NCBI RefSeq assembly: GCF_018598185.1
Contig: NZ_JAHESC010000003.1
Coordinates: forward strand, 186,001-250,000
Origin: Dawidia soli
GTDB taxonomy: Bacteria; Bacteroidota; Bacteroidia; Cytophagales; Cyclobacteriaceae
Reading direction: 5' to 3'
DNA: 64,000 nucleotides
Each line of letters opens with the position of its first letter. Position 1 is the first letter of the stretch. Shown piece by piece: positions 30,623 through 52,090 of the stretch. Made by a program: the position numbers and the translations under genes. The notes under the pieces are model-generated. The model made no database searches. It worked only from the letters and a program-made list of their open reading frames with translations, and was not told the origin of the DNA.

Positions 30623-32299
30623 CTAATGGATCACCACCTTGCGGGTGGTGGTACCGGTGCGCGACTGAACCTTGAGCTGATAGATTCCGGGCGTAAACCC
30701 TTCTACATTCAGCTCCGTACGCGGCGTGGTAATGGCTTGTTCTTTTATCACCTTACCCATCGGATCATACATCTTGACTATAGTCTTCTTGCCCAGCGCC
30801 CCCCGATACTCCACCGTGAGCGTGCCACGCGTAGGATTCGGATATGCCGCCAGTGACCCGTCTTCCTCAACGCTTGTGCCGAGGACTACGTTCACCACTT
30901 TTTTCTTCACGTTTGCATAGTTGAAATTAAAGGCCCCGTCGCCCATCAACACCCGCATGATGTGTTTGCCCGCCGTCAGCTGAACGTCGCGGCTCACCGT
31001 GGCATATTGCTGCCAGTTACCCGTGTTCGGCACGGCGATCGTACCGGTCTTGTCCTCCCCGTCAAACTCCACGCGGATCGAGCTCCCCGAGGCATTCTGC
31101 GACGCCACCCGCAGCTCGACGGCATACGCGCCCGCTTCTGCCACGTTCACGGTATACTCCAGCCACTCACTGCCCCCCAGCCAGCCCACGTTGTAGCCGC
31201 CTTCACCGCAGTGCTCGATATCGACAAACTCATTCGTACGATATTGTCCGCCGTTGTTCAGTGTATCGCTGTCGCTATAGGCCACGGCCGGGCCGCCGTC
31301 GTCAAAGTCTTCGGCTTCGATCTTGCCGGGGATCGGCCACGGCGTGCCTCCGTACGGCGTACCGTGCCCCTTGGTCTGGATCACTTTCTGAAGGGTACCG
31401 TCGGCGTTGTAAAACAACTTGTCCACGCAGATTGAACGCAGCCAGTCGTTCCCCGACAAAGCACTGTTGTGATAAAAGGCATACCACTGACCTTTGTACT
31501 CCACGATCGAACCGTGGTTGGTATAGCTGTCCGTCGGATCGATGTAAACACCCCTGTAGGTCCACGGCCCCAGCGGACTGGCGCTCGTCGCATACCGCAT
31601 ACGGTTGTGTTTCACACCGTCGTCGTTGTTGTCGGCGTACGACAGGTAGTATAGACCGTTGCGTTTGTGTACCCACGAGGCTTCGTGAAAATCCACCACG
31701 CCCTGCATGGGCTGCATGGCCCCGTCAAGCTCGATCATATTGGACTTTAATCTGCCACCCAGGCATACACCGCCACCGCCGTAATAAAAATATGCTTGTC
31801 CGTCGTCGTCGATAAAGACGCATGGATCGATGTGCGACTGCAACCCTTCGATATACCCCTGCACCGTAAAGTCGCTGGCAGGCTTGCTGCTGGTCGCGAT
31901 GCCGATCTTCCAGGTCGAATTCCACTCCGTACCACTCGGGTGCGGAAAGTAGAGGTAGTATGTGCCGTTCTTGTACGCGCAGTCGGGTGCCCACATAAAG
32001 CCGCCTTCCGGCCGGCCCCAGGGCACCTGGCTTGCCCGCAGGATCTCGCCGTGGTCGACCCAGTCCACCATGTTGTCGGTCGAGAAGACGTGGTACTGGT
32101 CCATCAGGTCGGCCCCTCGCGGTGGCGCGATGTCGCGCGAGGGGTATACATACAGGCGGCCATCGCTCCACACGTGGGCCGACGGATCGGCAGTATACAG
32201 GTGCTTGATAAAAGGGTTGCCGGGCATGTCCTGCGCCTGAGTCCCTGCCGGCAGGAGCAACGATCCACACAGGATCGCCAACATCAGTCTTGCGTTCAT
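30623..32299 (-). CDS. GH43 enzyme with CBM6 and type IX secretion sorting domain
   Basis: 558 residues in four parts: signal peptide (1-23), GH43 five-bladed propeller (about 28-320), CBM6 beta-sandwich (about 326-466, opening KIEAEDFDDGG and with WLEYTVNV) and a C-terminal Por secretion-tail domain (about 475-558, YPNPTRGTLTVEY and the ending GIYQLKVQS). The likely catalytic residues are Asp39 (base), Asp158 (modulator) and Glu206 (acid, FHEASW). GH43 enzymes act on xylosides, arabinosides or galactans. The tail marks it for export through the type IX system, so it is a cell-surface or free extracellular enzyme, unlike the lipoproteins around it. The gene is 10 bp after the GH71/99-like gene stop. 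Confidence 0.93.
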   Translation of the reverse strand: MNARLMLAILCGSLLLPAGTQAQDMPGNPFIKHLYTADPSAHVWSDGRLYVYPSRDIAPPRGADLMDQYHVFSTDNMVDWVDHGEILRASQVPWGRPEGGFMWAPDCAYKNGTYYLYFPHPSGTEWNSTWKIGIATSSKPASDFTVQGYIEGLQSHIDPCVFIDDDGQAYFYYGGGGVCLGGRLKSNMIELDGAMQPMQGVVDFHEASWVHKRNGLYYLSYADNNDDGVKHNRMRYATSASPLGPWTYRGVYIDPTDSYTNHGSIVEYKGQWYAFYHNSALSGNDWLRSICVDKLFYNADGTLQKVIQTKGHGTPYGGTPWPIPGKIEAEDFDDGGPAVAYSDSDTLNNGGQYRTNEFVDIEHCGEGGYNVGWLGGSEWLEYTVNVAEAGAYAVELRVASQNASGSSIRVEFDGEDKTGTIAVPNTGNWQQYATVSRDVQLTAGKHIMRVLMGDGAFNFNYANVKKKVVNVVLGTSVEEDGSLAAYPNPTRGTLTVEYRGALGKKTIVKMYDPMGKVIKEQAITTPRTELNVEGFTPGIYQLKVQSRTGTTTRKVVIH

Positions 32300-32309
32300 A
32301 AACGGTTAT

Positions 32310-33614
32310 TTATTCTCGGGTTGGTTTTGCAATGGTATAGCCGTTCTCTCCATGGAACCAGCGGGCAGCCTGCCCGACCAGCCACAGGTAATGATCGGTC
32401 TCCAGGTCCGCTTCGATGCCTGTGAACTTCAATCCCGTATCGCCATTCAACGGCACATCGCCTTCGTTCTTAACCTTGAAGATGGCCGTACCCTCGTCGA
32501 TCTCATCGAACATCGCCACATACAACGATGACGCACCTTGCAGCTTGGCACCCCACACCTGGCGCCACAAAAAGTCGCCCTTCAGCCGCGGGATGGAATT
32601 ATACAGGCCCGGATCGTTGTGCATGTTCGCCCAGCTAAAGCCCGGAAACACCAGCGGCACATAGTCCACGCCGTTGGCCTTGCACCACTTGACATCTTCC
32701 GCCACATTGTTCGGGTTATAGCCGTTGATATCATAGCGACCCACCGCCCACGGCATAATGATATCCGCCTTCTTGATCAGGGCGTGCAGCGCCGCGTCCT
32801 TTTCTGTATCGGCCCCGTTGGTGCGCCAGTAATACGGCACCCCCAGCATGATCGACACCTTGTTCGTGGCCTTGAGCTTATCCACCAGCGCCGTGACGTC
32901 CGCCGTCGTATAGGCACGGTTGTCGTTAAAGCCGACGCCCCAGATCACCACCAGCGGCTTGCCGCGATGGCGCAGGTAGGTAGGATTCTCCTGGCTGTCG
33001 AGCAGGTTAAAAAGCTCCTGAAGCTCTTCCCAGTCATCGTACAGGTACGCCACATCCGCAGGCGAGCTGCCGCTCAGGTCATACATCACGCTGATGGCAC
33101 GTTCGTATTTCCGGGCAGCCTTCAGCGCATTCTCCAGCACCTTGTTAAAGTGACGCTTGCCGCTGGCGTTAGACGGCTTGATCTCCCCCACAAAGCGCTG
33201 CATGTGCACACCGTCCAGGCCATAGTCCTTCATCCACTTGAAGTGCAGGTCCACTGTCGACTCGTCATACGGACTATATACATAAGCGCTCGATCCGTCA
33301 GGATACCGAAAGGCCGTTTCATAGGTCTTGGTATACTCACGCACATCGGGCCACAGGTCTACATTCGTACAGCCGGGGAAGAATCCGCAACCATTCTTCT
33401 GGTAGTGGTACCAGCCGCGGTTCGACTCATCACCCTCGGCGGCAAACCACCCCTGGTACCCCGCCATCACCAGCTTCGTATACGACGGGTACTTTACATT
33501 TGCGTCCACATCGGTAGAGTCCTCCGGCTCCGGCACGGGATCGGAGTCGCTGGAGCTGCAGGCCATGGCCATCAACGGAAAAATCAGTAAGGCTAAGATC
33601 TTCAGTAGTTTCAT
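32310..33614 (-). CDS. GH71/99-like lipoprotein
   Basis: 434 residues with a lipobox ending MAMACSSSDSD (Cys19) and an acidic linker of about 20 residues. The catalytic-type domain runs from about 42 to 400, starting SYTKLVMAGYQGWF, with WMKDYGLDGVHMQRF, YDLSGSSPADVAYLYDDW and PGFSWANMHND, which match the TIM-barrel GH99/GH71-like group. GH99 enzymes are endo-acting alpha-mannosidases or alpha-mannanases. The sequence is clearly related to this clan but I cannot place the catalytic glutamates, so the specificity is open. It is flanked by GH43-CBM6 and GH92 genes in one minus-strand cluster, which favours an alpha-mannan role. Confidence 0.78.
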   Translation of the reverse strand: MKLLKILALLIFPLMAMACSSSDSDPVPEPEDSTDVDANVKYPSYTKLVMAGYQGWFAAEGDESNRGWYHYQKNGCGFFPGCTNVDLWPDVREYTKTYETAFRYPDGSSAYVYSPYDESTVDLHFKWMKDYGLDGVHMQRFVGEIKPSNASGKRHFNKVLENALKAARKYERAISVMYDLSGSSPADVAYLYDDWEELQELFNLLDSQENPTYLRHRGKPLVVIWGVGFNDNRAYTTADVTALVDKLKATNKVSIMLGVPYYWRTNGADTEKDAALHALIKKADIIMPWAVGRYDINGYNPNNVAEDVKWCKANGVDYVPLVFPGFSWANMHNDPGLYNSIPRLKGDFLWRQVWGAKLQGASSLYVAMFDEIDEGTAIFKVKNEGDVPLNGDTGLKFTGIEADLETDHYLWLVGQAARWFHGENGYTIAKPTRE

Positions 33615-33648: not shown

Positions 33649-35931
33649 TTATTTTCCTCGCGGCTGCGCAGACATCGTAAATTCCAGCGTTCCGCCCTTC
33701 GCCAGGTCGGCATGGAAAAAGAACGGCGTGCGCAAGACCTTACCGTTCAGCTTCGCCTGTTGCACATACCGGGTCTGCGCCGTGTTGTGCGGCGCCTTGA
33801 TCACAAATTTCTTGCCACCGTCCAGGTGGACCGTCACCTCCTCGAACAACGGCCGCCCCAGGGTATACGTCGGATCGCCCGGGTTTACCTGGTAGAAGCC
33901 CAGGCTGCTCAGGATATACCATGCCGACATCTGTCCGCAATCTTCATTACCCGACAATCCATTCTGATCGTTAAAATAGAGTGTGGTCAGGATCTGATCC
34001 ACCAACGCCTGCGTCTTCCACGGCTGGCCTACATAGTTATACAAATACGCGATGTGGTGGCTCGGCTCATTACCGTGCGCATACTGGCCGATCAACCCCG
34101 AAATATCCGCCGACACATTCTGACCCGCGAGGTCCGAGTCGGCCGCAAACAAACTGTCGAGGCGCATCGCGAACGCCGCCTTGCCGCCGTGCAGCGCTAC
34201 CAATCCCTCCACATCGTGCGGCACAAACCACGACCACTGGTACGCATTCCCCTCCACATATTCGTCTTCGCGGTGATTCGAGAAGCGCGGGTTGAACGGC
34301 GACTTCCACGTGCCATCAGTTTTTTTACCACGCATAAACCCCGTGGTCTTATCAAAGTAGAGTTGATACCGCTTAGACCGCGCGCTGAATTTCTCATAGT
34401 CCGCCGTCTTGCCCAACGCCTTGGCCATTTGTGCTATACACCAGTCGTTATAAGCGTATTCCAGTGCCTTCGATACCGACTCGTTCTCTTTGTCGCACGG
34501 TATAAAGCCCAGCGTCTGGTTATAATACTTCGCCTTAGGCATCAGGTTCCGTTTGATCTCCTCATCGGGAAACGACACATTGATCGTGTCATACGTCGAA
34601 GCATGTACGATCGCCTGGTACGCTTTCTCCACGTCAAAATTGCGATAGCCCTTGAAATAGGCGTCCACGATCACCGGCACCGAGTGGTAACCGATCATCG
34701 TACCCGTCTCGTTAGACGACAGCTCCCACATCGGCAACACGCCCCGCTCCTCGTACTTCCGCACCAGGGCGCGGATCCACGCTTCATTGCGTGCGGGGTT
34801 GATGATGGTCATCAGCGGGTGGAATGCCCGGAAGGTATCCCACAGCGAAAACACGGTATAATTATCCGAACCGTTGGCGGTATGTGTGCGCGTATCCATA
34901 CCACGGTAACGACCGTCGGCATCGGTATAAATATTCGGACTGATCGCCGTGTGATACAGCGCCGTGTAGAAGATCTTCTGCTGGTCGGGCGTACCGCCTT
35001 TGATCTCGATCTTGCCGAGCCATGCTTCCCACGCGGCCGCGGCCGCCGCATGTACCGCGGCGAAATCCCACCCGGCAATTTCACGCATCACGTTGTTGCG
35101 TGCACCGTCATAGTCTACCGCCGAGATGCCCACTTTCGCCAGCACCGCGTTGCCCGCGCCGTTCCTGAACTTCAGCAGCGCCTTCGCGCCGCGCAGGTTG
35201 GTCGTTCGTACGGAGGCATCCAGTAACGCCTCGTTGACAGCCAACGTGCACGTAAACGGCTCCGAAAAAACAGCGTGAAAATATACATGCTGATCGCGCG
35301 CCCAGCCTTTGGTCACCTTCCGGCCGCGCAGCTCGTGGTCGTTGATGATCTCGATCTCGTTGACCACGTTCTGATGGCTTTGCAACGTATGGCCCACATC
35401 CACGATCAATCCGGCGTCGCTGCCCGCGGGAAAAGTGTAGCGGTGCATCCCCGCGCGCGTGGTCGCCGTCAGCTCGGCCTTTACGTTATAATCTTTGAGG
35501 GTCACCGTATAGTATCCCGGCGACGCATGCTCGGTGCCCGGCACTTTGGCCGAACAATATCCCGCGTCAGGCGTCTCGGCAGTACCTTGCGCCAGCGGCT
35601 GCGCACCCGTGGTCGGCATAAACAAAATGTCGCCATAATCACCGATGCCCGTGCCGCTCAGGTGCGTGTGCGAAAAACCGAGGATAGCCGGGTCGGAACT
35701 GTGATAACCAGAGCAGGCATCCCATCCATTCAAGCGTGTATCGGGACTGAGCTGCACCATGCCGTACGGCACGGTCGCCCCGGGGAATGTGTGGCCGTGG
35801 CCCCCCGTACCGATGAATGGGTCCACCAGGTCGACTTTGTGAGAAACAGGAGCGCGTGACTCCCGCGGAGGTTGTGCATATGCACCGCTCCCTACTATAA
35901 TAAGGAGTCCTAAAGCGGATAACATCTTCAT
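33649..35931 (-). CDS. GH92 alpha-mannosidase
   Basis: 760 residues from the ATG at 35931, which gives a direct signal peptide (MKMLSALGLLIIVGSGAYAQ); the longer frame start at 35976 adds 15 residues before it. Motifs of a complete GH92 are FPGATVPYGMVQLSPDT, LWDTFRAFHPLMTIINPARN, EGNAYQWSWFVPHDVEG and GNEDCGQMSAWYILSSLGFY, carrying the expected acid (Glu) and base (Asp) residues. It removes terminal alpha-linked mannose. It is the most canonical of the three GH92 genes in the window. It is divergent from the sensor-regulator gene at 36074, with a 142 bp shared control region. Confidence 0.95.
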   Translation of the reverse strand: MKMLSALGLLIIVGSGAYAQPPRESRAPVSHKVDLVDPFIGTGGHGHTFPGATVPYGMVQLSPDTRLNGWDACSGYHSSDPAILGFSHTHLSGTGIGDYGDILFMPTTGAQPLAQGTAETPDAGYCSAKVPGTEHASPGYYTVTLKDYNVKAELTATTRAGMHRYTFPAGSDAGLIVDVGHTLQSHQNVVNEIEIINDHELRGRKVTKGWARDQHVYFHAVFSEPFTCTLAVNEALLDASVRTTNLRGAKALLKFRNGAGNAVLAKVGISAVDYDGARNNVMREIAGWDFAAVHAAAAAAWEAWLGKIEIKGGTPDQQKIFYTALYHTAISPNIYTDADGRYRGMDTRTHTANGSDNYTVFSLWDTFRAFHPLMTIINPARNEAWIRALVRKYEERGVLPMWELSSNETGTMIGYHSVPVIVDAYFKGYRNFDVEKAYQAIVHASTYDTINVSFPDEEIKRNLMPKAKYYNQTLGFIPCDKENESVSKALEYAYNDWCIAQMAKALGKTADYEKFSARSKRYQLYFDKTTGFMRGKKTDGTWKSPFNPRFSNHREDEYVEGNAYQWSWFVPHDVEGLVALHGGKAAFAMRLDSLFAADSDLAGQNVSADISGLIGQYAHGNEPSHHIAYLYNYVGQPWKTQALVDQILTTLYFNDQNGLSGNEDCGQMSAWYILSSLGFYQVNPGDPTYTLGRPLFEEVTVHLDGGKKFVIKAPHNTAQTRYVQQAKLNGKVLRTPFFFHADLAKGGTLEFTMSAQPRGK

Positions 35932-36073
35932 AGGCTGGTTGCTGATAAGGAATGCCTCGAAAATATCCGCACACACTTAAAAACAGATTAATATCCGCTT
36001 AAACCCGCAGTGCAAACGTTTTTTAATTCTGATTATGCGGTTTTTTGAGTAAATTGTCACTATTGTAAATCTT

Positions 36074-38665
36074 ATGTGTGGGAGAAACTTAGTTGAGACA
36101 CGGATATCCGGAAGGATTCTGATCATGGGCCTGCTGACCTTGTTCTTTATCCAGGAGGGTTGGGCACAGAACAGCACGCCAACACCCGATTACGGCCTCT
36201 CGTTCGCCTCACACGAAGTCACCAAAGACCAACGCACATCACTTTCCCTCACGCCCGAAGAACCTTTCACCATCAAAGAGGACTTCGAGATCCGCTTCGA
36301 CTTCTCGCTCAAACGCCTGATCGATGCATACGGCTACGTGCTCCGCATCATCGCCAACGACTCTATTAACATAGACCTCGTATCGAGTCCCGAGCACGAC
36401 GACTTCCACGACCTCAACCTCATCATCGACAACAACCCACCGCAGATCCACTACGACCATCAGGACATCGGCCTGCGCCCGCTGCAGTGGACACCCGTCA
36501 CGATCAAGTTTGAAACCCGTCGTAAGAAGCTCACCGTGTCGTGGGCCGGTAAGACCAAAACACAGGAGCTGCCCTTCGCGAATCTGCGCACCTTCCGCTT
36601 TTTCTTTGGCGCCAACGATTTTGGACGTTTCAATACGTCCGATGTACCGCCCATGATCCTCCGCCACATCGCGCTCCAGCGTGTAAACGACAAGACCATT
36701 CAGTGGGACCTGCGTCGCCACGGCGTCGGCCAGGTATACGACAACACCAATACCTACGCCGCCATCGCTAAAAACCCGACGTGGCTCATCGACAAACATA
36801 CCACCTGGGTACACGCCCAGCAGTTCACCATCGCGCGTTACCCATCCGTAGCCTTCAACAGTGCCACGGGAACCGTATACGCCACCGACAAAAATCACGT
36901 ATATACCTACCACCTCTCCGACGGCCAGATGCACCACGCGCGCGTGCGCCAGGGCAAGCCCGTCTATATCGATGCCAACCAGCTGCTCTACATCGACGCG
37001 ACCCATACCCTCGTCAATTACGATCTGTATACCAACGTACTCTCCGCCTACGACTTCGACCACCAGCGATGGCAGAACAGCGACACCACTTACAACCTGC
37101 CCAACTACTGGCACAACAACAAATTCTACAACTCCTTCGATCGCTCCGTATATACCTTCGGCGGCTACGGTCACTTTAACTATAAGAATAAATTCATGCG
37201 CTACGACTCCGCGTCCCACGCATGGATCGAAGTAAAGACCCAGGGCAGTATTCCCCCGCGTTACCTCGGCGCCCTCGGCCTGACCGCGGCCAAAGACAAG
37301 GCTCTCATCTTTGGCGGCTACGGCAGCGAAAGCGGCAAACAGGAGTTGTTCCCGCAAAGCTTCTACGATCTATATACGTTCGATCTAAAGACCCACGCCA
37401 TCCGCAAGCTCTGGGAGCGCAAGTCCGAACCGGGCGAAGAAGATATCGTCTTCTCGAACTCACTGGTGGTAAACGAAGAAGACAGCTGCTTCTACGTTCT
37501 CAGCTTCCCGAAGAACAAATACGAAAACTACATCAAGCTGCGGAAGTACTCCCTCTCCAAACCCGAGTGGCAGGTGCTGGCCGACTCCATCCCCTTCCAG
37601 TTCCACGACGAGCACGCCTTCTGCGACCTGTTCCTCTCCAAAGCCACGCGTCAGCTCGTAGCCGTCACGTCGCACAAACAGATCGACCAGTACAAGATCA
37701 ATCTATACACCATCAACTATCCGCCCCTCAGCACCACCGATGTGTTCCAGGACACCGCGCCACGCATCGCACGGGCATCCTACTATAGCATTCTCGTCTT
37801 TATACTAATCACCGGCACGCTCGCCACGCTGGCCGTCATCATCTTCGTCCGCCGCAAAAAGAAAGCACCCGCTGTCGCCGTGATGACGACAGCCACCACC
37901 ACGGTGGCCCACGACGCCGCGCGCCATGCGCACGAGTCCGAGAAGAACATCGGAACGATCTACCTTTTCGGAGGCTTCCAGGTATTCGATAAACACGGTC
38001 ACGACATCACCGGCAAGTTCACGATGACCATCAAAGAGCTGTTCGTGCTCATCCTGATCCACTCCGTAAAATTCGAGAAAGGCATCTCCACCACCACGCT
38101 GCAGGAATACCTGTGGCCCGACAAAGGCGATATGAGCGCCCGCAACAACCGCAACGTAAACATCAAAAAACTGCGCGGCCTGCTCGAAGAGATCGGCGAC
38201 CTCACGATCGAAAACAACCACGCCTTCCTCCAGCTCGCCCTGGGCAAAAACGTCCTCTGCGACTACCACATCGTCTCACGTATCCTGGCAACCGAAACGC
38301 CGCTCACCGCCCAAACCGCCGAAACCCTGTTACGCTTCGTAAAACGCGGCAACCTGCTCCCCAACATCCAAACCACCTGGCTCGACAACTTTAAGTCCGA
38401 TATTTCCAACCGCATCATCGACGTCCTGCTGGAATATTCCCAAACCCTCAACGCCACCAAAGACGACCGCGTATTGCTGGAGATCGCCGACACCATCTTC
38501 CACTACGACAGCATCAACCAGGAAGCCCTCGTCATCAAATGTTCGGTCCTAAATAAGAAGGGCAAATATTCACTAGCCAAAACGTGGTACGATCACTTCG
38601 TAAAGGAATATAAAACCCTCTACGCCGAAAGCTACCCCAAGACCTTCGATGAGGTAATATCCTGA
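36074..38665 (+). CDS. Membrane-spanning regulator: LamG-like + kelch sensor, winged-helix/BTAD-like output
   Basis: 863 residues. Visible order: signal/anchor (about 1-32, ending WAQ), a LamG/concanavalin-like beta-sandwich (about 40-205), a kelch-type propeller (about 225-555, with YTFGGYGHF and LIFGGYGSES blade starts), one membrane segment (about 570-592, then RRKKK), an unstructured Ala/Thr/His linker, a winged-helix domain (about 626-722, FGGFQVFDKHG, then KELFVLILIHS, LQEYLWPDKG and RNVNIKKLRGLLEEIG) and a bacterial-transcriptional-activator-like helical tail (about 728-863). The layout predicts direct signalling from envelope to DNA by one polypeptide. It is divergent from GH92, GH71/99-like and GH43 genes and probably controls them. 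No histidine kinase or receiver domain is present. I know of no well-studied homologue with this arrangement. Confidence 0.82.
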   Translation: MCGRNLVETRISGRILIMGLLTLFFIQEGWAQNSTPTPDYGLSFASHEVTKDQRTSLSLTPEEPFTIKEDFEIRFDFSLKRLIDAYGYVLRIIANDSINIDLVSSPEHDDFHDLNLIIDNNPPQIHYDHQDIGLRPLQWTPVTIKFETRRKKLTVSWAGKTKTQELPFANLRTFRFFFGANDFGRFNTSDVPPMILRHIALQRVNDKTIQWDLRRHGVGQVYDNTNTYAAIAKNPTWLIDKHTTWVHAQQFTIARYPSVAFNSATGTVYATDKNHVYTYHLSDGQMHHARVRQGKPVYIDANQLLYIDATHTLVNYDLYTNVLSAYDFDHQRWQNSDTTYNLPNYWHNNKFYNSFDRSVYTFGGYGHFNYKNKFMRYDSASHAWIEVKTQGSIPPRYLGALGLTAAKDKALIFGGYGSESGKQELFPQSFYDLYTFDLKTHAIRKLWERKSEPGEEDIVFSNSLVVNEEDSCFYVLSFPKNKYENYIKLRKYSLSKPEWQVLADSIPFQFHDEHAFCDLFLSKATRQLVAVTSHKQIDQYKINLYTINYPPLSTTDVFQDTAPRIARASYYSILVFILITGTLATLAVIIFVRRKKKAPAVAVMTTATTTVAHDAARHAHESEKNIGTIYLFGGFQVFDKHGHDITGKFTMTIKELFVLILIHSVKFEKGISTTTLQEYLWPDKGDMSARNNRNVNIKKLRGLLEEIGDLTIENNHAFLQLALGKNVLCDYHIVSRILATETPLTAQTAETLLRFVKRGNLLPNIQTTWLDNFKSDISNRIIDVLLEYSQTLNATKDDRVLLEIADTIFHYDSINQEALVIKCSVLNKKGKYSLAKTWYDHFVKEYKTLYAESYPKTFDEVIS

Positions 38666-38763: not shown

Positions 38764-38786
38764 GACGGCAGTTACAAACTGCCGTC
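38764..38786. repeat. 23 bp perfect REP-like palindrome
   Basis: GACGGCAGTT and AACTGCCGTC pair perfectly around ACA. It overlaps the TGA stop codon of the GH2 gene (38785-38787). A diverged copy is at 25473. Palindromes of this kind recall REP elements mobilised by REP-associated tyrosine transposases, though no such gene is in the window. Confidence 0.75.
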
Positions 38787-41733
38787 AGTTCCAGGCATTA
38801 TTATAAGGCTCCGCCACCACCCTAAACCCATCATTCCCCACCAAACCCGCATCAAACTCCACCGCCACACTCCTACTCTCCCCCGGCATCAACGTAAAAT
38901 ACCCATCGCTGATAAACGCCGGCAGCACCTGCTCCCCCGTCCTTGCATTCAACACCTGCACGCGTACAGCAAACGCCACACCGGTCTTTCCATTCACAAC
39001 CTGGGCCTTCACGACCTGCTTGCCGTTCACCTTCTCCGCGCTCGAAACAACTTTCAGATCAACCGGCTTCAACGAATTCAGCGCCGTAAAATCCTTGCGC
39101 TTGTTCCCGCGCCAGTAGAAGTTCTCCGACACAATCTTACCTGCCTTATCCTTCAAACGCAGTTTGATAAAGTGCACGGCCGTCAACCCGCTATTCTTCG
39201 GCGTACCGCCATATACCCTCAGATCATACAGTGAATACCCCCAACCCGTGCCGCGCTCGACACCATACACCCGCACATACCGCGCTTCTGCGTCATCCAC
39301 AAAAGCGACATCCTGTACCCCTTCCTTACCATAATTGACTGTCGCCGCGTCGCGCCAATTCGAAGCATCATCCGACACCTGGATCTTATACACCTTGGCA
39401 TACGCCGTCTCCCACTTCACACGCACACCACTGATCGCCTCCCGGGCACCCAGATCAACATATACCCATTCGTTATTGCGCGCCGCACTTGCCCAGCGGG
39501 TACTCTCGTCGCCATCCGTAATAGACTCGGCACGGCCCGTCTCGGTCGAAGAAGCCACCACAGGCTTACCTTTTGCCAGATCACCCCGCTCGCCGCCAAA
39601 CGGTAATGCAAAACAATGCACCGCCGCATTCGACAACGCATCCACCGTCCGCGACAGCGTATACTTATCGACCACCTTGCCGTCCAGGTTATAGATCATC
39701 GCTTCTGCCGTCGCCCCTTCCAGATCCTTGCGCGTGGTATTGACCACCTTCACCGCATCGCTCACCGGGTTCCACTGAATGTGCACCGGTTCACACGCAC
39801 TCTTAATGCCCCAGTATGCACCCGTCAGGTCATAGTAATAATCGTACGTCTGCCAGATAAAAGTCGGCAGACCGGCGTTGCTCGTCCAGGTCATGATGCC
39901 CGCGGCGTCGTTCCAGATGTGGTCCTGCCAGCCTTCATACATCGCCTTGTTCGTCTCGATATTGACCAGCTGCGCCTTGCGGCAATACTCCTCGATGTTC
40001 GAAGGTTTACCATACCGTGTCTCGATGCTGCGGTCGTAGCCGTCCGCGTCGGCGTTAAAGGCCCAGTTGCCGAAGAAGTGGCGCTCCCACATCTCGTTGC
40101 GCGGCCACCAATGCTCCTTCGGTATAAATTTCTTAAAGCTTTCGACGTTCGTGAACACGGCACTGCCCAACTCGGTGCGGAAGCCCCAGCCGTCGTTGCC
40201 ACCCAGGCCGGTGGGATACTCGGTAAAGTAATAGCGCGGATCACGGTTGCCCCAGGGGCCGCTGCCGGAAAGGTTGTCGGCGTGCGAGTTCGCTTGGTAA
40301 TAGCGGTCGCCACCGTCAAAGGCGCGCACGTCTTCTTCCAGCCACTTGTTCAGCGGCGCTTCCGGCCAGCCTTCGTTGTCGGCGCACCACACCGCAATAG
40401 ACGGGTGATTGCGCAGCCGCACGATTTTCTCGATCGCGTTGGCGTTGAAGTTGCTCACGTCGCGCGGCAGGCTGGGGTTCGAGTTCAGCCAGAAGTCGTC
40501 CCACACCATGATGCCGTACTTGTCGCAGGCTTCGTAAAACTCTTCATCCGTCGTCGAGCCGATCCAGTTGCGGATCATGTTAAAGTTCATCTCGCGGTGC
40601 AGGCGTACCTTGGTATCGTACTCCTCGCCCCGGCACCGCAGCATATACTCCGACATGCTCCAGTTGCCACCCTTCACAAACACACGCGTGCCATTGATCG
40701 AAATGTGCAGCACCTGCCCCAGCGTATCGTAGCTGTACTGCTTGATGCCGAATGTCACCTGTTTTGTATCGGAGATCGTATTATTCTCTACCACGTTAAA
40801 CACACAGGTATACAGGTTAGGATCGCCATACCCATTGGGCCACCACAGTTTCGGGTTGTGTACGACCAGTTGGGAGAAGTGCCGCTTGTCAAGCTTTACC
40901 TGTGCCGTGCTGTTAGCCCCCACGTTCACCTTTTCTTCAAATGTGATGTTACCGGGTTGGATCACCCCTTTGACAACCGCCGTGCGCGATGCGTCGGTAT
41001 TGTTTTTTACATCCAGGGCCACCGTCAGGAACGCCGTGGCGTTTGTCGGCAGCTGCGTACGGATCCAGGGATCCCGAATGGTCAGCGCGCCAGAAGTACT
41101 CAGGTATACATCGTCGGTAATACCGGCGTTCAACCCGGGCACATAAGGCATCCAGTCCCAGCCACCACTGGAAACATACGTCGGCGACGCCGCGTTGGCC
41201 ATCGGGTGGCGCGGCGGCGATACCAGCACCGCCAGGGTATTGGCACCCGACGCCCGTACAATGCGCGTAATGTCATATTTGCCGCGCTGCATAAAGCCGT
41301 CCAGCGCGCCCAGCTTCTGGCCGTTGAGATAGATCTCCCCCTCGCGGTTGATTCCCTCGAAGTTCAGCCACAGGATTTCGCCCTTCATTGCTGCCGGTAC
41401 GGAAAACTGCGTCACATACCAATAGGGCTGATCGAACTTGGCTTTATCTGCCTTCCAGATGTTATCTGCATAGTTGGGGTCCTTTTCCAGTCCGGCCGCG
41501 ACATACGCCGTATACACCGTACCCGGCACCACCGCCGTTACCCATCCATCGGGTTTAAAATCCTCAAAGAGGCCGCGAAGATCCGTCCCCACCTCGCGCT
41601 GGGACTTGACCCGCCACACCTGCCGCGGCGAGCTTTTCAGATCTATATTCGTTTGGCCGCCGGCGATGCCCGACACGCCCACACACAAAAAACCAAGGCA
41701 CACGACCTTGTAAAAAAACTGATATATATACAT
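38785..41733 (-). CDS. GH2 exo-beta-glucosaminidase/mannosidase-like enzyme with inserted F5/8C domain
   Basis: 982 residues from the ATG at 41733, which directly starts a signal peptide ending IAGGQ; the longer frame start at 41799 has no signal at its N-terminus. Domains: sugar-binding jelly roll (about 35-215), Ig-like (220-335), TIM barrel (340-660) with acid/base Glu454 in ADNEGWPE and nucleophile Glu521 in RTELGSAVF. Then an Ig-like domain is interrupted by an F5/8C (discoidin) carbohydrate-binding domain (about 718-843, ITDGDESTRWASA) before HFIKLRLKDKAGK. The overall pattern is closest to exo-beta-D-glucosaminidases and mannosylglycoprotein endo-beta-mannosidases. It is the last gene of the sigma/FecR-controlled PUL, 84 bp after GH3. 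The activity cannot be chosen between glucosaminidase and mannosidase. Confidence 0.88.
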   Translation of the reverse strand: MYIYQFFYKVVCLGFLCVGVSGIAGGQTNIDLKSSPRQVWRVKSQREVGTDLRGLFEDFKPDGWVTAVVPGTVYTAYVAAGLEKDPNYADNIWKADKAKFDQPYWYVTQFSVPAAMKGEILWLNFEGINREGEIYLNGQKLGALDGFMQRGKYDITRIVRASGANTLAVLVSPPRHPMANAASPTYVSSGGWDWMPYVPGLNAGITDDVYLSTSGALTIRDPWIRTQLPTNATAFLTVALDVKNNTDASRTAVVKGVIQPGNITFEEKVNVGANSTAQVKLDKRHFSQLVVHNPKLWWPNGYGDPNLYTCVFNVVENNTISDTKQVTFGIKQYSYDTLGQVLHISINGTRVFVKGGNWSMSEYMLRCRGEEYDTKVRLHREMNFNMIRNWIGSTTDEEFYEACDKYGIMVWDDFWLNSNPSLPRDVSNFNANAIEKIVRLRNHPSIAVWCADNEGWPEAPLNKWLEEDVRAFDGGDRYYQANSHADNLSGSGPWGNRDPRYYFTEYPTGLGGNDGWGFRTELGSAVFTNVESFKKFIPKEHWWPRNEMWERHFFGNWAFNADADGYDRSIETRYGKPSNIEEYCRKAQLVNIETNKAMYEGWQDHIWNDAAGIMTWTSNAGLPTFIWQTYDYYYDLTGAYWGIKSACEPVHIQWNPVSDAVKVVNTTRKDLEGATAEAMIYNLDGKVVDKYTLSRTVDALSNAAVHCFALPFGGERGDLAKGKPVVASSTETGRAESITDGDESTRWASAARNNEWVYVDLGAREAISGVRVKWETAYAKVYKIQVSDDASNWRDAATVNYGKEGVQDVAFVDDAEARYVRVYGVERGTGWGYSLYDLRVYGGTPKNSGLTAVHFIKLRLKDKAGKIVSENFYWRGNKRKDFTALNSLKPVDLKVVSSAEKVNGKQVVKAQVVNGKTGVAFAVRVQVLNARTGEQVLPAFISDGYFTLMPGESRSVAVEFDAGLVGNDGFRVVAEPYNNAWN

Positions 41734-41817
41734 GCTGTGAATATGGTTAAAGAAGGAGTGGCGCCAGATAACAATTACCCGAAAGCACCCGGCAGCCACC
41801 CCCGAAACACGATGACA

Positions 41818-44091
41818 TTAATGAACCACGATCGTTTTATGAAAATGAATTTGGTCGGAAGCACTGCCGATCTGAATATCGAACTCGCCCGGCTCTACCA
41901 CGTAGCGCATGCGGTCGTTGTAGAGCCCCAGCTCCGACACGGGCACCTTTAACGTAACGGTTACACGCCTGCCCGCCTTGACCAATACCTTCTGAAAGGC
42001 CTTTAACTGCTGCACCGGAGTGGCCACCGAGCTCACCTTGTCGCGCACATACAGTTGCACCACTTCCTTGCCATCGCGCGGGCTGGTATTTTCCAGCTCC
42101 ACATTGATTCGGACCGTATCCGTCGACGCCAGCAACGAGTCGCGCGACACACAACGCAGATACCGGAAGCTCGAATAGCTCAGACCATACCCGAAGTTCC
42201 ACAGCGGCTCGGGGGTATCGAATATATAGTGACCCCGCGGCTGCTCCGGCGTACCCGGCTGGTCAAACGGACTCTCGCGATCCGTCACATAGTGGTTATA
42301 GTAACACGGCGTATTCCCCGTGCTGCGCGGAAACGACACGTTCAGCTTACCCGAAGGGTTCACACGGCCCACCAGAATATCGGCCATGGTGCGTCCCTGC
42401 ATCTCGCCACCGTACCACTGCGCCACCACGGCGTCGGCATGGTCCTTCACCCACGGCATCGCCAGCGGCTTACCTGAAATGAACACGACTACCATCGGCT
42501 TACCGGTAGCCTTCACCGCCTGGAGCAGCTCCGCTTGCACCCCCGGCAGCTCCAACGACGACAGGCCAAAGCCCTCCCCCGCCGTCGAGTTCTTCGCACT
42601 GCGGCCCAGGTACGTGCTGCGGGTACCGATCGCCACGATCACCAGGTCGCTGGCCTGCGCGGCCTTCACCGCATCCGGTATCCGCGAGCGATCCTGGCTC
42701 CACCAGTCACACCCTTCGACGTGACGCAGCGTCACCTTATTACCCACAACATCTTGCAGGCCCTTTAGCAGCGTAACACCCTCTTTCGTATCCGGTCCCG
42801 TCCACGAGTAATCGCCAAACACCGTCTGGTTGCTGTTCGGCCCCAGCACGGCAATCGACTTATACTTCGCCAGGTCCAACGGCAGGATGTTGTTGCTGTT
42901 CTTGAGCAACACCGCGCTCTCGTCGGCCACTTCTTTCGATAGGGCCACCTTGTCGGCACTGCGCACAACCTTGGCCACTTTGGTCGAGTCGCCGTACGGC
43001 GCATCGAACAACCCGAGCGAAAACTTGGTCGTCAGCACCCGGCGCACAGCCTGGTCGATATACCGCATTTCCAACTGGCCGCTTTGCACCAGCGCCTCCA
43101 GCTTGGTGTAGGCGCCGTCGATGTTCAGGTCCACACCGGCCGTCAGGGCGATCTTCGCCGCCTCTTCCTGCGTAGCGGCCTGGTGGTGGAAAGACTGCAA
43201 GCGGTCCACCGAACCCCAGTCGGAATATACATAGCCCCGAAAGCCCAGCTCGCCGCGCAGAATGTCCGTCATGTAATACGCCGAGCCCGTCACCGCCAGG
43301 CCGTCATACGCGCTGTAGCACGACATCACCGACCACGGCTGTGTCGCCGCGATCACGCGCTTGAATGGATACATATAAATACTGCGCAGCTCACGCTCAC
43401 CCCCGCTCACGTTGGCGCAATTCAAACCACCGGAGGGCGAGCCGTGTGCCACGAAGTGCTTAGGCGTACACGTGATATTGTGTTTCTGATAACCGCTCAC
43501 AAACGCAGTAGCCATCTCGCCGATCAGGTAGGGATCTTCCCCATAGGTTTCTTCGATCCGACCCCAACGCAGCTCACGCGCAATGTCGAGCACCGGCGAC
43601 AGGATCTGGTGGATCCCGATCACCCTAGCCTCCTCGCCCGCCGCTTCCGTCATGCGGCGTATCAGCGCGGGATTGAACGTACTGCCTTGCGCCAATGCCT
43701 GGGGAAAGATGGTACACTCGTTTTGCAAAACGCCTTCGATACCTTCCGCCGCCGTAAGGATGGGAATCCCCAGCCGGGTCTTTGTCGCCATATACTGCTG
43801 CAGCCTCTGGTACATCTTCGCGCAGTCGATGGCGCGCATGCCCATCTCGTGGGTACAGCCCCAGCTCTCGCCGTTAAAGATCCGGTCGATCTCGTCGGCA
43901 CGGCCGCTGCCGCGGTTTTGCAGTTGCAATATTTTTTCTTTCAGCGTCATGCGCTCCAGCAGGTCTTCCACCCGTGCCGGCACCGATGCCGTCTTGTCTT
44001 TATAGAGAGCCTTGCCCGCGTTGGTTTGGGCATAGCCGGAGAATGTCAGCGTTGAAAGAACACCGATCGTAGCAAAAAAAACAGTCTTCAT
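41818..44091 (-). CDS. GH3 beta-glycosidase (BglX type)
   Basis: 757 residues from the ATG at 44091; it opens a signal peptide (MKTVFFATIGVLSTLTFSGY). The longer frame start at 44178 lies inside the upstream hairpin. The domains are the GH3 barrel (about 38-370), alpha/beta sandwich (about 390-600) and fibronectin-III-like end (about 660-757). The nucleophile is Asp291 in YVYSDWGSV; KHFVAHG is at 211. GH3 enzymes are retaining exo-glycosidases, commonly beta-glucosidase or beta-xylosidase in this subgroup. It lies between the lipoprotein gene at 44211 and the GH2 gene, with a terminator-like hairpin before it, so expression may be partly uncoupled from SusCD. Confidence 0.93.
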   Translation of the reverse strand: MKTVFFATIGVLSTLTFSGYAQTNAGKALYKDKTASVPARVEDLLERMTLKEKILQLQNRGSGRADEIDRIFNGESWGCTHEMGMRAIDCAKMYQRLQQYMATKTRLGIPILTAAEGIEGVLQNECTIFPQALAQGSTFNPALIRRMTEAAGEEARVIGIHQILSPVLDIARELRWGRIEETYGEDPYLIGEMATAFVSGYQKHNITCTPKHFVAHGSPSGGLNCANVSGGERELRSIYMYPFKRVIAATQPWSVMSCYSAYDGLAVTGSAYYMTDILRGELGFRGYVYSDWGSVDRLQSFHHQAATQEEAAKIALTAGVDLNIDGAYTKLEALVQSGQLEMRYIDQAVRRVLTTKFSLGLFDAPYGDSTKVAKVVRSADKVALSKEVADESAVLLKNSNNILPLDLAKYKSIAVLGPNSNQTVFGDYSWTGPDTKEGVTLLKGLQDVVGNKVTLRHVEGCDWWSQDRSRIPDAVKAAQASDLVIVAIGTRSTYLGRSAKNSTAGEGFGLSSLELPGVQAELLQAVKATGKPMVVVFISGKPLAMPWVKDHADAVVAQWYGGEMQGRTMADILVGRVNPSGKLNVSFPRSTGNTPCYYNHYVTDRESPFDQPGTPEQPRGHYIFDTPEPLWNFGYGLSYSSFRYLRCVSRDSLLASTDTVRINVELENTSPRDGKEVVQLYVRDKVSSVATPVQQLKAFQKVLVKAGRRVTVTLKVPVSELGLYNDRMRYVVEPGEFDIQIGSASDQIHFHKTIVVH

Positions 44092-44158
44092 TCCATTGGT
44101 TAAAAGTCGATGAACAATAATTCTTGATGGATATTGGGTAAATTGGGATAGGAAAGAA

Positions 44159-44184
44159 ACACCGGCGGCAAATGCCACCGGTGT
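44159..44184 (-). terminator. Terminator-like hairpin between lipoprotein gene and GH3
   Basis: ACACCGG pairs with CCGGTGT; after one mismatch GGC/GCC extends the stem around an AAAT loop. On the minus strand it is followed by a T-rich TTTCTTTCC. It may attenuate transcription into GH3. Confidence 0.55.
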
Positions 44185-44210
44185 AGGAGTTATTTAGATT
44201 GGAGATGAAA

Positions 44211-45413
44211 TCAATTCGAATCTTCCGGGTGGACCACCAGTTTCACGCTCCTGAATTGCAGGTATACATTCTGGCCCGTACTGATCACCCAGCCTATCGC
44301 AACCGGCTTGGCCTCTTCTAATGTGAATGTCAGATCGTGCGTGCCTCTCAGATCGTCAACGTTTGTAGCGTGGAACAGTGCCAGCGGCGTGCCGATATTA
44401 TTGATATCCGGCAGTTCCGATCCCTCTGCTATGATCTCATAAACATCAAAGGGACTACCGCCGCAGTTACCGGTTTCAAAAGACATGGTGTATGTACCGG
44501 CCGGCAATATAAAAGTCTGCCACACCTTGCCATTGTCTACACCCGCGCCACTCCAGTCCTGTGTTTCAAAATGGATCACACCACCTTCGTCCCATGACCA
44601 TCCGCCACCCTGACCGCCATTCTGATTGGTAGCCGCCGGGTTGAACAACCAATCCTTAGGTGTACCCCACTTTTGGTTACCACTATCACCGCGCTTGAAA
44701 GGCTTTCCTGGGTTCTTGAAATAAGCACGCGTAATGTTTGTCGCTCCGATATACTCGATCGCAGCTTTGAATGTATCGATCGCCAGTTTTTCCGGCTTGT
44801 AATACGTCTGGTAACTAAACTTGGTGCTCCTCTTATAGTCCAGCAAAGCCACCGAGTCCATATCCCCCTTCACACGCACAACCCGCTCCACATCGTCCGC
44901 ACCCATATACCTGATCTCTGTAAACAGAGCAGTTTCATCGCTGGTATACATCCGGACCCGAACCTCGGTGTCGCTCATCACTTCCACCGCCCGGAGTGGC
45001 CGGTTGATCAGCGACTCCTGGTAGTTTACGCCATACGAAGACCCGCCGGCGAATACCGTTACCGACGAGTTGCCCGCGGCGTCGTACGTGATCAGCTCGA
45101 AATTGTAGCGCCCCTCGGGCAACGCGATCGGAATGCTCAGGCTGTCGACCCCGGCGCTCCGCTCGATATCCAGGATCAGCGAATCCTGACGGATATTCCA
45201 GTATATCTTAAGCTTGACGATCTTCGGGTCGGCAATCAGCAACCCCGTGATCACCACGCGATTGTTACCCGCCCGCGCATGCACCGAGTCGACGCGCCCG
45301 GTATAGATCAGCTCTTTTCCGCCAGTGTATTTCAGATAGTCGTCCATGTCGGTACACGCCACGACGGCAGCCACCATCATGGCAACGATCAATATCCCTT
45401 TCAGATTTTTCAT
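44211..45413 (-). CDS. DUF4998-type surface lipoprotein, DUF5013-like C-terminus
   Basis: 400 residues from the ATG at 45413; the five residues added by the longer frame come from a TTG. The lipobox is VAAVVACTDMDD, with acidic residues after the cysteine. An N-terminal DUF4998-like module (about 24-210) has YTGRVDSVHARAGNNRVVITG, and paired Ig-like repeats. The C-terminal domain (about 235-400) is a jelly-roll sandwich (GVIHFETQDWSGAGV and WVISTGQNVYLQFRSVKL), resembling DUF5013. Such proteins are surface glycan-binding partners of SusCD. The gene lies 31 bp after its DUF4959-type neighbour. The paralogue at 59047 has the same N-terminal module but a different C-terminal domain. Confidence 0.8.
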   Translation of the reverse strand: MKNLKGILIVAMMVAAVVACTDMDDYLKYTGGKELIYTGRVDSVHARAGNNRVVITGLLIADPKIVKLKIYWNIRQDSLILDIERSAGVDSLSIPIALPEGRYNFELITYDAAGNSSVTVFAGGSSYGVNYQESLINRPLRAVEVMSDTEVRVRMYTSDETALFTEIRYMGADDVERVVRVKGDMDSVALLDYKRSTKFSYQTYYKPEKLAIDTFKAAIEYIGATNITRAYFKNPGKPFKRGDSGNQKWGTPKDWLFNPAATNQNGGQGGGWSWDEGGVIHFETQDWSGAGVDNGKVWQTFILPAGTYTMSFETGNCGGSPFDVYEIIAEGSELPDINNIGTPLALFHATNVDDLRGTHDLTFTLEEAKPVAIGWVISTGQNVYLQFRSVKLVVHPEDSN

Positions 45414-45444
45414 GATAATGCTATTCAAATATCAAAACTATAGA

Positions 45445-46632
45445 TCACTTATCGTTGCCCCAGAAAGTAACTTCCGAAAACACCATATTCGTATTCCCCG
45501 ACCAGTTTTCCAGGCAGCGGATGCGGATATACCGAACACGCGGCATGTCGTTGGGTACATTGGCTTCATCGCCTGCACGACCCGCCGTACGGTCGTCGTC
45601 GGTGAACAAACCAATGGGCAGCCCCGAAGGCTTGATGTTGGTGATCGACAACAGCTTGGTCCAACCATCCAGCGAGCCGTTGGGATTGTAGCTCGTCGTA
45701 CCCCATACCTCATACCGTTTCGGCGATACGTCGTTATACCAGTGACGATCGTCTTGTACCGTCTGCAGCGAGAAGCGGCTCAGCTGTGCTTCCACGCCCA
45801 GGTCGAACGTGATGATCTTCGGCACACCCGTGCTGGCGTTGCCTGTGTGCAGGCCAAAGCCCGGTACGTCACCCGTCACACGGCCGTCCCACACGTAGGG
45901 CATCGCACCGCCCCACTCGTTGGTCCGGGAATCCCCCGGCAGCGACAACTCCCGGAATTTGGTCTTGTCCAACTCAACCTCGTAGATCGGCACCAGCTCT
46001 TGCAGCAATACATCCGACTCATTGCCCCAGCGATCGCGGACAAAGACACCAAACGGGCGCGACACCGATTCATACCCGCGCACCGAGAAGCTCGCAGTAT
46101 CACGTGCCGTATAGAAGGTGCGCGCCACAGCCATGTTACCTGTCGAGTCCGGCGTCGTCACGACGATTGCCAGGTCGGCCTTACTGGTATTGATGAACGA
46201 TATCGAAGCACCGCCGAAATCAGGCTCTATCACGATCGTCTCGAAAGTCGTCAGCACGGGCGGCGTCTTCGGTATTACCTGAATGGTAACGGGCGTCGAT
46301 CGGTTGCCACTGCGGTCTACAGTATAGAGGTCAACCGTACGGGGCTCTGTATCCGGAAAGCCATCGACAGTAAGGGTATTCGTATAATACGAGCCCTTGA
46401 ACTCCATGTCACGCCCCGCTTTATTCTTATAGATCGCCTGCACATACAACAGGTCGGGGTCTGACGGCAACGTGTAGGTCAGACGCGCGGCGCCAGGCAG
46501 CGGCTCGGCCTCCACGTTCAGTACGGGGCCCGGCGCCGACCCGTCGGTCTCGATGGCGCTGAGCTGATCGGTATCACAGCCGGACACGACCGCCAACAAT
46601 ATACATACCGTAATATATTTTATACTGTTCAT
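45445..46632 (-). CDS. DUF4959/DUF5126/DUF5000-type surface lipoprotein
   Basis: 395 residues with a lipobox ending VVSGCDTDQL. Three modules follow: DUF4959-like (about 30-125, VLNVEAEPLPGAARLTYTLP), DUF5126-like Ig module (about 128-230, VIEPDFGGASISF) and a C-terminal DUF5000/F5-8C-like sandwich (about 240-395, RYEVWGTTSYNPNGSLDGW and closing FSEVTFWGN). It is a likely surface glycan-binding lipoprotein of the SusCD system. It follows SusD by 33 bp. A full-length paralogue with the same module order is at 60201. Confidence 0.85.
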   Translation of the reverse strand: MNSIKYITVCILLAVVSGCDTDQLSAIETDGSAPGPVLNVEAEPLPGAARLTYTLPSDPDLLYVQAIYKNKAGRDMEFKGSYYTNTLTVDGFPDTEPRTVDLYTVDRSGNRSTPVTIQVIPKTPPVLTTFETIVIEPDFGGASISFINTSKADLAIVVTTPDSTGNMAVARTFYTARDTASFSVRGYESVSRPFGVFVRDRWGNESDVLLQELVPIYEVELDKTKFRELSLPGDSRTNEWGGAMPYVWDGRVTGDVPGFGLHTGNASTGVPKIITFDLGVEAQLSRFSLQTVQDDRHWYNDVSPKRYEVWGTTSYNPNGSLDGWTKLLSITNIKPSGLPIGLFTDDDRTAGRAGDEANVPNDMPRVRYIRIRCLENWSGNTNMVFSEVTFWGNDK

Positions 46633-46665
46633 TTGAATACAGGGTTAAAGGAACATTGATCTTTA

Positions 46666-48579: not shown

Positions 48580-48590
48580 GTGTTCCGGTA

Positions 48591-52028: not shown

Positions 52029-52090
52029 TTGAATGGCTTGCGTTAAGTAAGGAATTGTTATGAACAGTGACATTCTGAATGAGGCAGGCT

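Follow-up and report, generated by a model that had tools for sequence, protein, structure and literature searches.

The stretch of DNA analysed here (the window) spans 64,000 nucleotides of Dawidia soli (contig NZ_JAHESC010000003.1, positions 186,001 to 250,000), and the gene under study lies on its plus strand at 36074–38665, with 863 codons open throughout. Read with an 83-row family alignment (A2), this gene encodes a regulator that joins a LamG-like sandwich, a kelch propeller, a transmembrane helix and an output module of the Streptomyces antibiotic regulatory protein (SARP) type. It diverges from an operon of glycoside hydrolase (GH) genes led by a GH92 gene, with an array of TTAA repeats between the two. 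Because of the domain layout, the SARP homology, the conservation of the family, the linkage to GH92 or GH76-like genes and a conserved array in SARP geometry, we regard the product as probably a one-component activator of the SARP type that is tethered to the membrane and turns on the use of alpha-mannan (mannose-rich glycan).

The protein was modelled with AlphaFold2 from 83 family rows (mean predicted local distance difference test score, pLDDT, 88.9; predicted template-modelling score, pTM, 0.65), and this model superseded a first one built from a 3-row alignment (pLDDT 51.8). In its first half the model is beta-rich at residues ~40–235, forms a propeller at ~246–548 and continues into a single helix at 567–592; the second half comprises a low-confidence linker (595–623), a winged helix with wing strands (627–723) and a helical tail. 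Pfam searches with the 863-aa protein at E ≤ 10 gave no match to histidine kinase, receiver or AraC domains, nor to sigma-70 regions or an anti-sigma domain. The initial annotation had proposed a one-component protein with sensor parts, one transmembrane helix and a DNA-binding output in a single chain. That architecture was confirmed, and the lack of a kinase or receiver match agrees with its one-component character; the LamG label is its weakest part. The structural and profile comparisons suggested there recovered the propeller and the SARP fold, along with a sandwich that is beta-rich and has no LamG match. Judged computationally, homologues sharing all four parts exist, the C-terminal domain is of a DNA-binding type and residues 592–625 are predicted to fall on the cytoplasmic side.

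The output module consists of an OmpR-type winged-helix half at 37952–38242 (plus strand, residues 627–723), delimited by the family profile, the model and hhalign, and an all-helical, TPR-like BTAD half at 38243–38662 (plus strand, residues 724–863), delimited by BTAD matches in relatives, the model and hhalign. Searched by itself, the window protein gave no Pfam hit to BTAD, while BTAD was matched in 11 of 83 family members (best E-value 3.4e-6) and Trans_reg_C in 4/83. A family profile (A3) recovered other SARP/BTAD proteins of the phylum at 8e-16, 1.1e-14 and 8.5e-14, and these carry strong BTAD matches themselves (3.7e-25, 3.9e-11 and 5.9e-12). One of them aligned to A3 in hhalign at 98.3% (214/233 columns) and has chains of EmbR and AfsR among its PDB matches. 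Since A3 matches BTAD proteins in this way and the chain of matches leads to EmbR and AfsR, it is well supported by sequence comparison that the tail is a complete SARP module of winged helix plus BTAD, as the winged-helix/BTAD-like output of the initial annotation had anticipated. The truncated protein of locus L064 was omitted from alignment A4. Columns reaching at least 80% identity made up 29% of residues 627–730, the highest conservation in the protein, compared with 18% of the propeller, 11% of the sandwich, 9% of the BTAD half and 0% of the membrane and linker residues 560–626.

The membrane helix and a basic stop-transfer (VRRKKK) lie at 37790–37864 on the plus strand. By hydropathy the helix (residues 573–591) is the sole strongly hydrophobic segment scored in the window protein. 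A mid-protein membrane segment was found in 80 of the 81 proteins examined (none was above threshold in L081), and the 12 residues that follow it carry a net positive charge in 79/80, the exception being L054. A cytosolic C-terminus is thus supported by the positive-inside rule, in line with the cytoplasmic placement of residues 592–625 that had been proposed. At the other end, a hydrophobic helix at 36098–36160 (plus strand, residues 9–29), placed by the model and by reading the sequence, is a probable signal peptide. This segment scored below the 1.6 hydropathy threshold, which 50 of 81 family proteins pass. It had been called a signal anchor, and its sequence (EGWA-QN) resembles a cleavable signal peptide more.

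Of the two predicted sensor parts, the propeller is the better defined. It occupies 36809–37717 (plus strand, residues ~246–548) and matches Pfam PF24681 at 3.5e-16 over residues 319–502, above the cut-off. Nearly all of the 50 PDB matches shown by Foldseek are kelch propellers, with those of plant specifier proteins, LZTR1 and KLHDC2 in the top ranks, so the kelch-type assignment stands. The beta-sandwich at 36191–36778 (plus strand, residues ~40–235) is LamG-like by topology, with model strands at high pLDDT. None of 82 family members matched the Pfam LamG models at E 0.01, a PDB profile search with the sandwich returned chance-level matches (MotA was best at 0.15, and the thrombospondin-1 N-domain reached 0.76), and hhalign against a relative bearing Laminin_G_3 gave a probability of 0.5%. 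The LamG-like sandwich of the initial annotation therefore holds as an all-beta region in the model and not as a match in Pfam, PDB profiles or hhalign; the label rests on model topology, and LamG identity is not proven.

Between the regulator and the GH92 gene, three TTAA motifs at 35977, 35988 and 35999 form a putative operator (35977–36002, no strand assigned) with an 11-bp period. This exact triple occurs once in the 64 kb and in 0/100 shuffles, and in an intergenic alignment the exact 11-bp steps are kept in all four close orthologues (L007–L010, proteins 53–89% identical). Towards GH92, the element TATTTTCG (35958–35965, minus strand) lies 11 bp from the nearest TTAA, and its TAnnTT pattern was read by eye at the same distance on the minus strand in 5/5 aligned sequences. 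We call it -7-like on what we take to be the Bacteroidota -7 consensus. If the heptamer unit is started at TTAA, which was our choice, the gap to this element becomes 8 bp, the same as the published SARP repeat-to--10 distance. In a described SARP operator the 3' repeat lies 8 bp from the -10 element (PMC10936776), and the SARP PimR is described as binding three heptamers with 4-bp spacers, that is, 11-bp direct repeats, three appearing to be the optimal number (PMC5930380). By its sequence, the array has the geometry of a SARP operator.

Array counts were made in the 400 bp before 76 regulators (75 loci and the window; five loci were omitted as too near a contig end). Exact TTAA triples spaced N7/N7, N8/N7 or N7/N8 were present upstream of 27/76 regulators, spanning 10 named genera, vs. 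11 of 562 other locus genes (Fisher 5e-19, with rows that are not phylogenetically independent). Four of those 11 genes are SusC-sized (1037–1067 aa). By spacing, N8/N7 was found upstream of 22 regulators, N7/N7 of six and N8/N9 of 10 (the overlap of N8/N9 with the 27 is uncounted); thirteen other spacings, N7/N8 included, gave 0–1 exact triples, and seven other four-letter cores at the array spacings gave 0–6. Exact arrays across all 80 loci were intergenic in 48 of 49 cases. In other genera the array tends to GRTTAA-N-GGGTTAAAA-NN-GGGTTAA, with a period of 12 + 11. The pattern GGGTTAAAANNGGGTTAA was present in 11 of 21 regulator-bearing genomes vs. 0/15 in which none was found (reversed control 0), and 11 of its 12 matches had a GH76 match no more than ~3.1 kb away. 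In 75 upstream regions, autocorrelation at lag 11 was 11.17 vs. 9.89 ± 0.13 in ten block shuffles; because lags 6, 12–14 and 20 were raised too, we relied on the exact-pattern counts.

The divergent operon begins with a GH92 alpha-mannosidase-type gene at 33649–35931 on the minus strand (PF07971, 4.3e-187), with a probable ATG at 35931 by eye and the longest open reading frame (ORF) starting from a GTG at 35976. The second gene encodes a GH99-like protein (32310–33614, minus strand) and the third a GH43 enzyme with CBM6/35 and a sorting tail (30623–32299, minus strand; PF04616, 1.9e-38). The GH99-like gene has no Pfam match of its own; a 45% identical paralogue (L180:5175-6452) matches the last third of the GH99 model PF16317 at 3.5e-9, above the cut-off, and through this match the earlier guess of GH71-99 fits GH99. 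Further SusC-like genes in the window (11027–14122 and 15883–19017) lie ~17–25 kb from the regulator. For the convergent GH2/GH3/SusCD block at 38785–52073 no exact array was found, and allowing two mismatches gave four matches in the window, a number reached by 6 of 100 shuffles; this block need not be a target.

The species-genome scan found 98 relatives of the regulator, of which the best 80 were retained for analysis. They are 789–888 aa long (the starts were our choice) and nearly all align along their entire length, with the least query coverage in L064 (134–862) and L070 (41–828); they come from Cytophagales, Sphingobacteriales, Bacteroidales and others. Sequence similarity, not gene neighbourhood, determined the ranking of loci. 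Gene calling used a simple script that takes the longest ORF, which makes start distances approximate. Neighbours were counted in the 57 of 80 loci with full flanks, 20 of which are from Sphingobacterium. The upstream neighbour was divergent in 50/57 (binomial 4e-9, with related loci not independent). By our own profiles, a GH92 or GH76-like gene lay in the flanks of 51/57 loci (GH76-like in 36, GH92 in 19). These profiles were seeded from some of the counted loci, and blastp alone likewise gave GH92 in 19/57. The linkage held outside Sphingobacterium in 31 of 37 loci, and in 23 of 28 taxon labels. The 33 genomes searched have 2–20 GH92 copies each (mean ~9), from which we estimate by hand that GH92 should turn up by chance in ~3% of 18-kb flanks. 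The same architecture beside glycosidases in other Bacteroidota, which the initial annotation had suggested looking for, was thus found.

Among immediate upstream neighbours, Pfam identified GH76 in 23 loci and GH92 in four, the remainder being mixed and including single genes without a glycan link (e.g., HypD, an ABC transporter), and downstream neighbours were varied (GH92 four, GH125 two, DUF1275 seven, sugar-kinase-like six). GH92, GH76, GH99 and GH125 indicate alpha-mannan. In an annotated Persicobacter psychrovividus record, the relative is flanked by GH92 on both sides, then by SusC/SusD, with two exact TTAA arrays. SusC-like genes lay near 45 of 57 loci, a count from which no enrichment is claimed, since the scan meant to give a background scored at most 18 candidates per genome. 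The GH76-like proteins (~490 aa, e.g., L025:7144-8619) form a divergent subfamily, which was found at 1e-60 in 1/395 phylum genomes with at most three candidates scored per genome, a figure not used as proof. A conserved ~600-aa protein (L026:6854-8668 and relatives) was also seen in 20 of the 57 full-flank loci, often adjoining the GH76-like gene. As published background, a GH76-bearing cluster of one marine member of the Bacteroidota is described as alpha-mannan inducible (PMC9213526).

The D. soli genome has three members of the family, the two paralogues being 55% and 26% identical to the window protein. One (C49) adjoins SusC, SusD and a GH99-like gene, and within 9 kb of the other (C27) lie SusC and a GH76-like gene. 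A further locus (C26, L180) carries two arrays, one 36 bp ahead of a GH99-like gene and one 98 bp ahead of SusC, measured from mid-array to the longest-ORF start, and its GH43 is 73% identical to that of the window. Its SusC/SusD are 83/84% identical to a pair in the regulator locus L009 of Chryseosolibacter histidini, a species of a related genus (SusD there is cut by the locus edge), where the pair lies one gene from GH92 and the regulator and SusC has an array ~107 bp upstream. We read the window cluster and C26 as a single regulon that appears to be split in the D. soli genome. Across the D. soli genome (L180–L189) there are about 20 TTAA triples at 11–12 bp, compared with 0–1 for the reversed pattern. 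Several of them are of another flavour, TTAATTTCGATTTAA, near HlyD, EF-hand and other genes, and are possibly another regulator's site.

In the phylum sample the full family is patchy, being present in at least 6 of 296 genomes (this one included), and A3 matched at least 14/395, three of them via ordinary SARP/BTAD proteins only; with three candidates scored per genome, these figures are lower bounds. Several variants carry other sensors on the same output. Five proteins (L142:5358-8372, L144:12070-15030, L144:5698-8721, L151:3806-6811 and L152:4715-7711) combine the sensor type of a hybrid two-component system (HTCS) with one membrane segment and a SARP output that replaces the kinase, receiver and AraC parts. 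Among the six such variants scanned (G526/G528, ~1000 aa), five had Reg_prop at E ≤ 0.01 (four above the cut-off) and two had a weak Y_Y_Y match; the TTAA array was not found in the stretches examined. These variants suggest that sensors may have been exchanged between phosphorelay and direct DNA-binding outputs. On a Parabacteroides distasonis plasmid, L004:6063-8738 joins an N-terminal part with a weak TIM-barrel match, Laminin_G_3 and a transmembrane helix to the same SARP end; it adjoins an oxidoreductase and a sugar isomerase, with no SusC/D annotated in the stretch shown. A 646-aa variant in G216 has the membrane-SARP end and no kelch match, and in one member (G164:C1:1152952-1155449) a stop separates the sequence into two frames, apparently because the gene is defective or was misread in sequencing. 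SARP-only proteins of ~260 aa with no membrane segment were also seen (L109:9794-10570, L148:8964-9746), their genes lying directly downstream of an 808-aa member in G338 and, in G456, of a piece of 392 aa that has a membrane helix.

In the proposed mechanism, the sandwich and kelch propeller would lie outside the inner membrane and sense an alpha-mannan-derived oligosaccharide, the polymer probably being the alpha-mannan of yeast and fungal walls. The signal would cross via the one membrane helix and the flexible linker. Two or three SARP modules may then sit head-to-tail and cooperatively on the 11-bp TTAA array, as the array and the known SARPs suggest, and the bound modules would recruit RNA polymerase to the GH92/GH99-like/GH43 promoter. 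In trans, the same regulator could act on the second SusC/SusD/GH99-like/GH43 locus of the genome. The target named in the initial annotation, the divergent GH92/GH99-like/GH43 cluster, is supported by the operator-like array between regulator and GH92. Its claim that signalling proceeds without any phosphorylation holds in part, in that the protein has no phosphorylation part, while partner proteins are still conceivable.

The same machine might answer another stimulus, such as an N-glycan core, mannan from the cell's own envelope or a partner protein of the SusC/SusD kind. The kelch propellers matched in the PDB are mostly protein binders by their descriptions, and GH92, GH99 and GH76 enzymes also act on N-glycans and glycoproteins; the repeated GH76-like/GH92 linkage indicates mannose-rich polymers instead, and we hold this alternative to be a real possibility but a doubtful one. 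Alternatively, a ligand or partner could trigger proteolysis near the membrane and free the SARP part as a soluble factor. The low-confidence linker, the absence of any column at 80% conservation in 560–626 and the ~260-aa SARP-only proteins beside a longer member or a membrane-helix piece would suit such release, whereas the helix and its basic flank, present in 79 of 81 proteins, are what a stable anchor would show, and we judge release unlikely. Repression rather than activation of the divergent operon would be compatible with an array that may overlap the -33 region (placed by eye). It appears very unlikely, since this manner of engaging the -35 region is described for SARPs acting as activators (PMC10936776).

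Several observations weigh against an alpha-mannan regulator acting through the array. In six of the 57 loci GH92 and GH76-like genes are both missing, and the GH76-like subfamily matches Pfam GH76 weakly (best 6e-21, most much weaker), which leaves its specificity uncertain. An exact triple of these spacings is absent upstream of 49/76 regulators, and both D. soli paralogues are without an exact array nearby. When one mismatch is allowed, the spacing preference blurs among the 76 regulators (N8/N7 29, N7/N9 24, N8/N8 22, N9/N6 21, N9/N8 19, N7/N7 17). The genomes in which the GGGTTAAAA form was counted include some that had served to define it. The D. soli genome (G000) holds 19 forward array matches (reversed-pattern control 0), some of them near GH31, GH95, HlyD and GT2/glycosyltransferase genes, and arrays occur in genomes without a found regulator, mostly at close to control frequency (15 vs. 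a control of 11 in G222, 20 vs. 10 in G034, 19 vs. 28 in G053). The array as a unique mark of the regulator was accordingly rejected. These stray arrays would also suit a site for another regulator, e.g., a transcription factor common in the lineage, with the SARP protein acting elsewhere. Against this stand the excess of arrays before regulators, seen in 10 named genera, the absence of the GGGTTAAAA form from 15/15 genomes without a found regulator and a geometry equal to that of SARP operators, and we judge it quite unlikely.

Among known regulators, those of the ToxR/CadC type have an N-terminal cytosolic OmpR-type winged helix, one transmembrane helix and a sensor outside, and are not known to carry BTAD; the window protein shares the outside sensor, single helix and inside OmpR-type winged helix, with the domain order reversed. 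SARPs such as AfsR, PimR and EmbR share the winged helix with BTAD and the 11-bp direct repeats, and differ in that their SARP part is N-terminal, with NOD/TPR or LAL parts coming after it in the large members (PMC5930380, PMC10936776). In the window protein the module stands at the C-terminal end, after a membrane helix, and no such helix is mentioned for known SARPs in the consulted parts of these papers. Regulation of polysaccharide utilisation loci (PULs) in Bacteroides is attributed to SusR-like proteins, HTCS, extracytoplasmic function (ECF) sigma/anti-sigma pairs and conventional sugar regulators, with the alpha-mannan loci of B. thetaiotaomicron assigned to HTCS (PMC3878776). HTCS, including HTCS_Man, share a large periplasmic sensor, a PUL target and, for some, alpha-mannan, but have kinase, receiver and AraC parts of their own (PMC3878776), which the window protein does not. 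SusR is described as a one-component activator of PULs that sits in the membrane and whose inferred motifs are direct repeats, and the SusR-like type shares with our protein a periplasmic sensor, a membrane segment, a cytosolic DNA-binding part, SusC/D activation and direct repeats (PMC3878776). It differs in a DNA-binding part reported to be unlike known families and in repeats with a long spacer, and the relevant passages mention no kelch or LamG-like sensor for it, a comparison by description and not by sequence (PMC3878776).

No description of a SARP output on a transmembrane sensor, or of its link to alpha-mannan, was recognised in the open-licence literature, subscription journals being outside the scope. 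The initial annotation, which knew of no PUL sensor with this layout, is borne out to that extent and qualified by SusR; with SusR as an existing one-component PUL regulator of the membrane, what is new is the SARP output and the combination of sensor parts. We lean slightly towards a fourth class of glycan switch in Bacteroidota, namely membrane SARPs with swappable sensors (sandwich plus kelch, an N-terminal domain plus LamG, or HTCS-type propellers with Y_Y_Y) whose main branch is dedicated to alpha-mannan and reads triple 11-bp TTAA operators. If true, a membrane-bound SARP whose operator can be recognised from sequence would be a further class of PUL regulation, allow alpha-mannan sensing to be read out directly and permit regulon prediction, unlinked loci included, from a simple repeat. 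A type of regulator familiar from the antibiotic clusters of actinomycetes would here be wired to a transmembrane sensor.

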